Of a DNA stretch of 64,000 bases, positions 36,250 to 39,210 are shown piece after piece. How positions within the stretch are numbered: the first letter of the stretch is position 1; every line of letters starts with the position of its first letter. The stretch covers positions 62,001-126,000 of the forward strand of contig CP087210.1 in the NCBI GenBank assembly GCA_020912385.1, read 5' to 3'. Position numbers and translations under genes: made by a program. The DNA comes from Neofusicoccum parvum. Taxonomy: Eukaryota; Ascomycota; Dothideomycetes; Botryosphaeriales; Botryosphaeriaceae. The notes beneath the pieces were generated by a model that ran no database searches, was not told the origin of the DNA, and saw only the letters and a list, made by a program, of their open reading frames with translations.

Positions 36250-38943
36250 ATGGCTCAATTGACCGACCTCCGCTTCGAGCACCATCCGGACGGCTTCGGC
36301 ATCGGCACACCTGCCCCGCGCTTGTCGTGGCGCTTCTCGCATGGCCAGTCCCCCGCGCAGGATTGGAGCCAGAAGACATACGAGGTTGAGATTCGCAGAG
36401 GATCGGAACCCAAGCCAGAGTCGTTCCACGTCGACTCCGGAAACTCTGTCCTGAACCCATGGCCAAGCCAGCCGCTGGCATCCCGCGCAAGGGCATCGGT
36501 GCGAGTGAGGGCCTTTGGGTCGGATGGCGGCCCCACCGTGTGGTCCTCCTGGCAAGATGTGGAAGCCGGCCTGCTGCAGCGCTCGGACTGGGCTGCCAAC
36601 TTCATCACCTCGCCAGAAGATCCGCCCAAGGACAAGCCGCACCGGCCGACCCTCTTTCGGCAAACCTTCAATGCCAAGTCTCTCGCAAACGCTCGCGCCA
36701 GGCTCTACATCACCAGCCTTGGAGTCTACGAAGCTCACATCAACGGTCGCCGGGTCGGTGATCTGCAGATGACGCCGGGGTGGACGAGCTACCGCCACCG
36801 GCTGCAGTACCAGGTCTACGACGTCACCAGCCTTCTTCAAGAGGGCGAGAATGCAATTGGAGTTGAAGTGGCTGAAGGCTGGTACGCCGGAAGGCTCAGG
36901 TGGGGCGAGGGTGTCCGCAATTTCTACGGTGACCGGCTGGGTGTGCTCGCTCAGCTGGAGATCCAACTGGACGACGGATCGCGACAGCAGGTCATCTCTG
37001 ACGATGGCTGGAGAACACACCAGTCATCACTGGTGACGAGCGAGCTTTACGACGGGGAGGTCTATCATGCACACGAAGAGCCTGGAGACTGGACAAGCCC
37101 CGCTTTCTCAGCCGGAAGCAGATGGCAGCCTGCGCGCCTCCTCGATTTCCCCAAGATTGATCTCATCTTGCCCGACGTTCCTCCGGTGCGTGTGACGGAG
37201 ACACTTGAGCCTCGTGAGATTTTCAAGAGCAAGAGCGGCAAGACACTTGTTGATTTTGGCCAAAATTTGGTCGGCAAGATCTTCATCCGCTCCCTCCAGA
37301 AGCCCGACGGCCACACGCTGAAGATCAGACACGCTGAAGTGCTGGAGAATGGCGAGCTGGGTACCCGGCCGCTGCGAAATGCCAGGGCCGAAGACACTGT
37401 CGTGTTCTCCAAGCAGCCGCTCAAAGACTGGAGCCCGCGCTTCACCTTCCACGGCTTTCGCTACGTCCAGATCGAGGGCTGGTCTCTGGACGACGAAGCC
37501 CCGCCAGCCAAGGGTAACATCAGCGCCCTTGTCATGCACTCCGACATGCAGCGGACCGGCCACTTCCACTGCTCTAACGACCTCGTCAACAAGCTCCACC
37601 AGAACGTCGTGTGGAGCATGCGCGGCAACTTCCTCTCCATCCCCACCGACTGCCCCCAGCGCGACGAGCGCCTGGGCTGGACCGGCGACATCCAAGTCTT
37701 CTCGCCCACCGCCTCCTACCTCTACAGCAGCGGCGGCCTCCTCGCCAACTGGCTGCAGGACGTGGCCGCCGAGCAAGCCGACGCGGGGGGCATCGTGCCG
37801 CTGGTGGTGCCCGACGTCCTCAGCGGCACAACCTGGCCCAGCGTCCCGCAAGCCGTGTGGGACGACGCGGCCATCCTGGTGCCCTGGACGCTGTACCGGT
37901 GGACCGGCGACGCGGCCGTCCTGCGGCGGCAGCTGCCCAGCATGCGCGCGCACCTCGACGCCGCCGTCCGCCGCGGCCCCGACGGCCTGTGGGACGCCGC
38001 CCTGTGGCAGCTGGGCGACTGGCTCGACCCGGCCGCCCCGCCGCGCGAGCCCGGCCTCGCCCGCACCGACGGCACCCTCGTCGCCGACGCCTACCTCGTA
38101 CGCGTCACGGACACGGTGGCCCAGGTCTGCGCAGCCGTCGGCGAGCACGCGCTCGCTGCTCGCTACCGCGCCGACCACGCCCGCCTGCGCGCCGTCTTCG
38201 CCGCGAAGTACGTCGCGCCGTCTGGGCTGCTGGTCGGTGACACGCAGACCGCGCTGGCGCTCGCGCTGTGCTTCTCGCTGCACGACGGCGGCGACGAGCA
38301 GGTCCGCGCCGCGGCTGACCGCCTGGCGCGGCTGGTTCGCTACTCGAAGTTCCGCGTGTCGACTGGGTTCGCAGGCACGCCGCTCGTGCTGGCGGCGCTG
38401 TCCGGCGCGGGTCACGTTCAGTTGGCGTACCGTATGCTGCTGGAGGAGAAGTGTCCGAGCTGGCTGTATCCGGTGACCATGGGGGCGACGACGGTGTGGG
38501 AGCGGTGGGATAGCATGCTCGCTGATGGGAGTATCAATCCGGGGGAGATGACCAGTTTTAATCACTACGCGCTGGGGTCGGTGGCGGATTGGTTGCATAC
38601 GACTGTTGGGGGGTTGAGTCCGTTGGAGCCGGGGTGGAAGACGTTTAGGGTGGGGCCGGTGCCAGGGGGAACGGTGACGACGGCGGAGGTGAGGTTTGAG
38701 AGTCCATATGGGACAGTTGAGAGTGAGTGGGTGGTGGAGGGCGAGAGCGAAGTGCCGAAGATGTTCAAGTTGAAGGTGAATGTGCCTCCAAACACCTCGG
38801 CTCTCATTGTTCTACCAGGACAAAAGGACGAAGACGGAGTGTGGGTTGGCTCTGGTTCGCACCAGAAGGAGTCTGCTTATGAACCTCCTGGACAGTGGCC
38901 ACCGAAGGCTATGTACACCCAATTCAAAGAGGGACTTGAGTAG
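36250..38943 (+). CDS. Glycoside hydrolase family 78, alpha-L-rhamnosidase
   Basis: A single 897-aa exon. The N-terminal part begins LTDLRFEHHPDGFGIGTPAP and RLSWRF, as in bacterial-type rhamnosidases; a beta-sandwich follows (ARLYITSLGVYEAHINGRRV). The catalytic (alpha/alpha)6 domain has DCPQRDERLGWTGD near residues 467-480, which includes the acidic residues expected for catalysis. Further on are NWLQDVAAEQ and EKCPSWLYPVTMGATTVWERWDS. No signal peptide is visible, so it is probably intracellular. It removes alpha-L-rhamnose from glycosides such as flavonoid rhamnosides or pectin fragments. Codon use is GC-rich and no introns are seen, which would fit an ancient bacterial origin of the family. 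Confidence 0.93.
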   Translation: MAQLTDLRFEHHPDGFGIGTPAPRLSWRFSHGQSPAQDWSQKTYEVEIRRGSEPKPESFHVDSGNSVLNPWPSQPLASRARASVRVRAFGSDGGPTVWSSWQDVEAGLLQRSDWAANFITSPEDPPKDKPHRPTLFRQTFNAKSLANARARLYITSLGVYEAHINGRRVGDLQMTPGWTSYRHRLQYQVYDVTSLLQEGENAIGVEVAEGWYAGRLRWGEGVRNFYGDRLGVLAQLEIQLDDGSRQQVISDDGWRTHQSSLVTSELYDGEVYHAHEEPGDWTSPAFSAGSRWQPARLLDFPKIDLILPDVPPVRVTETLEPREIFKSKSGKTLVDFGQNLVGKIFIRSLQKPDGHTLKIRHAEVLENGELGTRPLRNARAEDTVVFSKQPLKDWSPRFTFHGFRYVQIEGWSLDDEAPPAKGNISALVMHSDMQRTGHFHCSNDLVNKLHQNVVWSMRGNFLSIPTDCPQRDERLGWTGDIQVFSPTASYLYSSGGLLANWLQDVAAEQADAGGIVPLVVPDVLSGTTWPSVPQAVWDDAAILVPWTLYRWTGDAAVLRRQLPSMRAHLDAAVRRGPDGLWDAALWQLGDWLDPAAPPREPGLARTDGTLVADAYLVRVTDTVAQVCAAVGEHALAARYRADHARLRAVFAAKYVAPSGLLVGDTQTALALALCFSLHDGGDEQVRAAADRLARLVRYSKFRVSTGFAGTPLVLAALSGAGHVQLAYRMLLEEKCPSWLYPVTMGATTVWERWDSMLADGSINPGEMTSFNHYALGSVADWLHTTVGGLSPLEPGWKTFRVGPVPGGTVTTAEVRFESPYGTVESEWVVEGESEVPKMFKLKVNVPPNTSALIVLPGQKDEDGVWVGSGSHQKESAYEPPGQWPPKAMYTQFKEGLE

Positions 38944-39052
38944 GTTGTTTACGGTCTTGTGCTTAGTAGTTGTGTCTATATACACTCTATCAGCAAAACA
39001 ATCTTCCAATCAATCAGGCTCAGTGGTCTAGAGGTATGATTCACGCTTCGGG

Positions 39053-39102
39053 TAAATGCCTCCCGCATCTCTCAGAGGTGCTTGAAGCTGATATGCTTGA
39101 AC
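39053..39102 (+). other. Anticodon-loop tRNA intron
   Basis: 50 nt inserted between positions 37 and 38, the canonical nuclear tRNA intron site. The flanking anticodon stem pairs fully once it is removed. Confidence 0.8.
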
Positions 39103-39122
39103 TGTGTGAGGTCCCGGGTTCA

Positions 39123-39177
39123 GTAAGTTTCCATGTTCGAGCCATAATGAAATCAGTTGACTAACAATTGGTAACAG
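39123..39177 (+). other. Spliceosomal-intron-like insert in the tRNA T-loop
   Basis: A 55-nt segment starting GTAAGT and ending CAG, with GACTAAC 15 nt before the end, inserted after T-loop position 57. It interrupts the natural B box, but itself carries TGTTCGAGCC (39134-39143), close to the B-box consensus. Confidence 0.7.
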
Positions 39178-39201
39178 ATCCCCGGCTGAGCCCCAAATCA
39201 C

Positions 39202-39210
39202 TTTTTTTTT
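39202..39210 (+). terminator. RNA polymerase III terminator
   Basis: A run of nine T residues, 9 bp after the end of the tRNA-Pro gene. Confidence 0.8.

Follow-up and report, generated by a model that had tools for sequence, protein, structure and literature searches.

The U6 gene of fission yeast was reportedly found, by Tani and Ohshima in 1989 and by Frendewey et al. in 1990, to be interrupted by an mRNA-type intron with an internal B box. An mRNA-type intron with a B box is likewise described for the U6 snRNA of Schizosaccharomyces in the relevant passages of a later account (PMC10484740). As far as these passages go, fission yeast U6 is the closest precedent for the genes considered here, being a Pol III gene split by a spliceosomal intron that bears a B box. 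Its product, however, is a component of the spliceosome and its intron is thought to have been caught by reverse splicing near catalytic nucleotides, whereas the hosts found here are tRNAs of several isotype families, many of which also contain an anticodon-loop intron. In lichen fungi, short spliceosomal introns (one of 57 bp) occur in non-mRNA and are spliced by the host, but these lie in Pol I rRNA, and the passages that describe them mention no promoter element (PMC8527467). The U3 snoRNA of fungi, termed a polymerase III gene, is a stable non-coding RNA with normal spliceosomal introns; it is not a tRNA, and its description mentions no B box (PMC5832005). The tRNA genes of nucleomorphs have T- and D-arm introns beside the anticodon-loop ones, but those of Guillardia measure 3-24 nt, and the spliceosome goes unmentioned in the main text of the paper on them (PMC4090602). 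Among the matches listed in a full-text literature search, whose scope excluded preprints and most subscription journals, none described a spliceosomal intron in a tRNA gene, though one may have been published elsewhere.

The window, that is, the whole stretch of 64,000 nt that was analysed, corresponds to positions 62001-126000 of contig C5 in a genome (G000) of 44 Mb and 18 contigs. Direct reading of its sequence located a tRNA-Pro(CGG) gene on the plus strand at 39017-39193. The 5' exon (39017-39052, tRNA positions 1-37), placed by sequence and by ARAGORN, includes TGGTCTAGAGG at 39024-39034, which, matched to the consensus by eye, we take to be an intact A box. A canonical anticodon-loop intron of 50 nt, with boundaries given by ARAGORN and of the tRNA-endonuclease type by its position, occupies 39053-39102, and the middle exon (positions 38-57, placed likewise by sequence and ARAGORN) extends over 39103-39122. 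A second insert of 55 nt follows between positions 57 and 58 (39123-39177), with the form GTAAGT...GACTAAC...CAG; its branch-point motif GACTAAC lies at 39159-39165, with the candidate branch A at 39164. This insert disrupts the native B box (GTTCAGTAA), and GTTCGAGCC at 39135-39143 within it is a perfect match to GWTCRANNC, the B-box consensus. The 3' exon (39178-39193, positions 58-73) ends in the discriminator C73, and a T9 terminator is situated at 39202-39210. Directly upstream of the tRNA gene, at 36250-38943, an uninterrupted alpha-L-rhamnosidase gene was observed. Across 89% of its length its product shares 99% identity with a protein of Neofusicoccum parvum, compared with 72% for one of Macrophomina, so the host belongs to the Botryosphaeriaceae and is very probably N. 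parvum.

Much of this had been proposed by an initial annotation made from the letters alone. That a tRNA-Pro(CGG) gene here holds both an anticodon-loop intron and, after position 57, a 55-nt insert was confirmed by reading the sequence and by ARAGORN, which, like Rfam, did not detect the gene with the insert in place but called tRNA-Pro(CGG) once the 55 nt were taken out. The fungal mRNA-intron signals GTAAGT, GACTAAC and CAG, the broken native B box and the T9 terminator were all found where they had been described, and the element that had been called close to a B box proved to be a perfect one. After removal of the insert, the acceptor (7/7) and the T stem (5/5) consist of Watson-Crick pairs, and the anticodon stem, judged by eye, is paired at all positions, with one G-T wobble. 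The spliceosome-type reading of the insert was supported at the sequence level and was much strengthened by the paralogs described below.

The observation in the window is real and not a one-off. At least 18 tRNA genes with nine anticodons form the class to which this gene belongs, and they hold 20 such inserts, including 13 at 57/58 (hereafter T57 inserts), 6 in the D arm, and 1 after position 60. The isotypes concerned were Pro(AGG, CGG, TGG), Ala(AGC, CGC), Arg(CCT), Val(CAC), His(GTG), and Leu(CAG). A search with DNA found two more Pro(CGG) genes on contig C16 with the same two-intron layout as the window gene. A pattern of the D-arm exon (at most 2 mismatches), which demanded no splice signal, hit 13 places, 12 of them tRNA genes, and 11 of the 12 carried GT...CTAAY...AG inserts. 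These stood after position 57 in three Pro(CGG), four Pro(AGG), one Pro(TGG), and one Ala(CGC) gene and in the D arm in two Val(CAC) genes, one of which also had the insert that follows position 60. A second Ala(CGC) gene found in this way was without an insert. The T-loop-insert pattern gave 20 rows at 17 distinct sites, 13 of them in tRNA genes and 4 not tRNA, and it added two Ala(AGC) and two Arg(CCT) genes to those with T57 inserts. Since it was not enriched genome-wide (20 rows vs. 29 for the reversed control), its weight rests on the 13 of 17 sites that fell in tRNA genes. The D-arm-insert pattern matched 10 places (27 in the control), namely the two Val genes, one Ala(AGC) gene (L078), the His(GTG) gene, two places that were not tRNA, and four left unread. 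A further pattern had 15 matches (17 in the control), comprising 11 known tRNA genes and four others with GTG that were left unread, and the splice-signal pattern had 43 rows (35 in the control), with 13 known tRNA genes among them. When contigs of other origin were scanned, prokaryotic ones gave no match and viral ones, in three scans, gave 1, 5 and 0 stretches; all six were read around the match, and none was tRNA-like.

The majority of tRNA genes manage without such inserts, because 48 of the 49 genes above the Rfam cut-off of RF00005, a set that was obtained without any splice signal and is a minimum, since 63 of 860 candidates were scored, were free of them. The exception was Leu(CAG) (L065, G000:C5:2705772-2705936), whose D arm contains a 55-nt GTAAGT...CTAAC...TAG insert; ARAGORN misreads it as it stands as Gly with an 82-nt intron and reads Leu(CAG) after the insert is removed. 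The RF00005 search overlooked the His(GTG) gene, and no Asp, Glu, Asn, Phe, or Tyr gene was among the tRNA genes turned up by these searches. Two genes, Ala(AGC) L078 (G000:C4:464.5 kb) and Val(CAC) L015 (G000:C14:589.8 kb), have three introns each, in the D arm, the anticodon loop, and the T arm. The position of the D-arm insert is shared between the two Val(CAC) genes, L015 and L016, and the T-arm insert after position 60 exists in L015 only, possibly through a recent gain or loss. Uninterrupted copies exist for Ala(CGC) (L057) and for Ala(AGC) (L058, labelled Leu by ARAGORN and read as Ala(AGC) by eye). Of the 18 interrupted genes submitted unmodified to ARAGORN, 15 were undetected and 3 mis-called, and none of the 13 genes with T57 inserts was detected. 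Removal of the inserts yielded a tRNA cloverleaf in 18 of 18 cases, 16 of them with the anticodon read by eye; the anticodon was wrong for one Ala(AGC) gene (AlaAGC_1) and one Val(CAC) gene (ValCAC_1), and the His gene was fitted without an anticodon intron.

The signals at the ends of the inserts were those of spliceosomal introns. The 5' sites lie near GTRAGY: all 13 T57 inserts start with GTARG, which had not been required for the nine found through the D-arm exon pattern, and the other seven start with GTAAGT (five), GTGAGT, and GTTAGT. The Pro(TGG) gene ProTGG_1 has a weaker 5' site, GTAGGC. CTAAC is present in all 13 T57 inserts, although four of them came from a search that demanded it (the nine from the D-arm exon pattern did not), and the candidate branch A is 9-14 nt from the 3' end. 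The seven remaining inserts have CTAAC or CTAAT, the latter in four of the six D-arm inserts. All 20 inserts end in YAG, and they measure 52-59 nt (53-58 nt for T57). In an alignment of the nine inserts from the D-arm exon pattern, GTTC, GTA-G, TTC-A--C, CTAACA, and AG-A were invariant. Introns on the coding side were comparable. Of 25 non-tRNA sites with splice signals that were frame-tested, one (L115) gave no acceptor, and in 16 of the 24 left the reading frame stayed open to either side once the intron was taken out; these were 46-67 nt long with 8-15 nt (24 in one) from branch to end, an agreement in length and branch distance that, as these introns were picked with the same signals, indicates compatibility only and gives no independent consensus. 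Shuffled T57 inserts showed GTRNG...CTRAY...AG in 8 of 200,000 trials. Chance as the source of the signals was ruled out by these shuffles and by the discovery of inserts from exons alone. From the signals resembling those of coding introns, the lack of a BHB helix, and the lack of a preceding U in the T57 inserts, we infer that the spliceosome is the enzyme that would remove them. In the genome itself, no U6 intron was found, as each of the three U6 matches spans the whole model without a break. One intronless U6 gene (L137 1460-1600; G000:C16:1152130-1152229, minus strand) has, immediately beyond its T run, GTTCGATCC, presumably a downstream B box as in budding yeast U6.

Exons and inserts have changed at very different rates. 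Four Pro(AGG) genes show no difference in the 72 nt that precede the insert and share 16-17 of the 17 nt that follow it (the last of these is beyond C73), but their inserts match at only 27-51 of 53-56 columns; the drift, which goes down to 27 of 56 matches, falls outside the splice sites, the branch point, and the B box. The acceptor and T-stem pairs of the 13 genes with T57 inserts were standard in 156 of 156 cases (G-T included), despite stem differences between families. Between the window gene and the Pro(CGG) copies on C16, compensated changes were seen at pairs 27-43 and 28-42. A run of at least four T follows all 13 genes.

We found that the B box has been relocated into the T57 inserts. 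The native B box is broken in all 13 of these genes, and a perfect GWTCRANNC begins at insert position 12 or 13 in 10 of them; the other three have, by eye, a B box with one mismatch at position 13 or 14. Perfect B boxes were absent from the seven inserts elsewhere (0/7 vs. 10/13; Fisher p 0.003) and occurred in 578 of 50,000 shuffled inserts. Five of these seven inserts are the sole extra insert of their gene or lie in a gene with a whole native B box (nearly whole in Val L015); in Ala(AGC) L078 the B box is found within the T57 insert. Such a pattern is the one expected if binding of TFIIIC were under selection. A box, B box, and T run were found together, with the A box checked, by eye, in the window gene alone. 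The 3' flanks of both interrupted Ala(AGC) genes (L078 and L088) contain, about 8 nt past the tRNA, GGTTCAATTCCGG, which resembles a further B box and lies outside the gene.

The Pro genes were investigated with three exon-based patterns. The D arm (at most 2 mismatches) retrieved eight, each with a T57 insert. The contiguous variable loop and T arm (at most 1 mismatch) retrieved eight places, of which one was a Pro gene, Pro(TGG) L132, split after position 10 by GTGAGT...GACTAAT...CAG; the other seven were a Cys gene (L053), Val L016, four places that were not tRNA, and one left unread (C11:437093), whose T loop would read GCTCG. The exact anticodon arm retrieved 16 places, consisting of the same nine Pro genes and seven places judged not to be tRNA from the surrounding 161-171 nt, both with ARAGORN and by eye. 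Whatever its anticodon, each of these nine Pro genes carries an insert, and no intact tRNA-Pro gene was found by the D-arm, T-arm, or anticodon-arm patterns. Nor did ARAGORN call any Pro among the 49 genes above the RF00005 cut-off, for which 63 of 860 candidates were scored. The initial annotation had thought that a second, intact tRNA-Pro(CGG) gene would speak against it; one was sought and none was found, and all three CGG genes found have the insert. BLAST with a joined tRNA-Pro was insensitive and carries little weight: it missed the window gene and showed no more than the C16 pair, with breaks at positions 37 and 56. Because every one of the nine Pro genes found has an insert, proline decoding seems, from these gene sequences, to depend on insert removal. 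If a strongly diverged intact Pro gene is present, it would have to serve every CCN codon decoded in the cytosol. About 110 nt downstream of a Pro(TGG) gene (L013), a fragment, TTCTCGCTTTAGGTTT, resembles a decayed copy of the Pro anticodon arm.

That the 55-nt insert is a U2-type spliceosomal intron in a working Pol III tRNA-Pro(CGG) gene, and part of a genome-wide class, appears to us very probable, and other origins were weighed against it. The D- and T-arm introns known from nucleomorph tRNA genes (PMC4090602) allow the idea that the inserts are extra tRNA-endonuclease introns at non-canonical sites, as in nucleomorphs or archaea, with GT and AG by coincidence. Yet a BHB motif (two 3-nt bulges and a 4-bp central helix), looked for in the T57 inserts in two registers, reached four pairs in none of the 13 (at best three of four), in agreement with the earlier claim that the insert is no tRNA-endonuclease site. 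Moreover, GTA-G, CTAACA, and AG stayed invariant among the nine aligned inserts while most other positions drifted, and 52-59 nt compares with the 3-24 nt given for Guillardia, so that we consider this origin very unlikely. A group I intron is preceded by a U that ends the 5' exon, but all 13 T57 inserts follow a purine (A57 or G57) and have GT...CTAAC...AG. Degenerate small group I introns are therefore scarcely credible here, even if putative ones of 56-81 nt, similar in size, are reported from Phialophora rRNA (PMC3160393).

Decay of the genes was the alternative left by the initial annotation, in the form of tRNA pseudogenes hit by insertions. The invisibility of the window gene to ARAGORN and Rfam and the insert-free copies of some isotypes would fit it, but an interruption is present in all nine Pro genes found and no intact one turned up beside them, and the identical exons of the four Pro(AGG) copies, the 156 of 156 stem pairs, the compensated stem changes, the terminators, and the relocated B boxes all disfavour it, which leaves it highly improbable. 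It could also be argued that the spliceosome normally acts on Pol II transcripts, and that the tRNA regions are spliced only inside longer transcripts of this kind, their B boxes being remnants. This is very improbable as well, because T57 inserts, unlike the others, carry a rebuilt B box at almost the same distance from their start, a T run follows 13 of 13, and the A box, by eye, is retained in the window gene.

If the insert is a spliceosomal intron of a Pol III gene, the following order of events is suggested. TFIIIC would occupy the intact A box together with the intron-borne B box, and Pol III would transcribe the window gene through to T9. The spliceosome would excise the T-loop intron by way of GTAAGT, GACTAAC, and CAG, restoring the T loop GUUCAAUCC, and tRNA endonuclease and ligase would excise the anticodon-loop intron. 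RNase P and RNase Z recognise the folded tRNA elbow, so the T arm is probably restored ahead of end processing. The T57 inserts of Pro, Ala, and Arg genes share the same position, a near-identical length, and a near-identical B-box offset, and such sequence features suggest either that a single ancestral T-loop intron has spread or that these genes have a target site in common; the simplest route of spread would be for the intron to enter the conserved T loop by reverse splicing. Going further, pre-tRNA-Pro may be an obligate spliceosome substrate, which would make translation spliceosome-dependent twice, and the T-loop introns may be B-box carriers that moved from one isoacceptor family to another by reverse splicing, with the universally conserved T loop (GTTCR/AUYC) as the target; such a route has been proposed for the U6 intron. 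We advance this larger hypothesis tentatively, with somewhat less than even confidence.

Essential tRNA genes can escape gene finders, as ARAGORN misses all 13 genes with T57 inserts and Rfam misses the window gene. These genes would also offer a natural system in which to ask by what means the spliceosome reaches Pol III transcripts, what lets introns invade conserved sites in RNA, and in what way one of them can take over a promoter element. If this is confirmed, the range of spliceosome substrates would extend from mRNA, U6, U3, and rRNA to nuclear tRNAs, and a single precursor would require two unrelated splicing systems, giving the spliceosome a new role.
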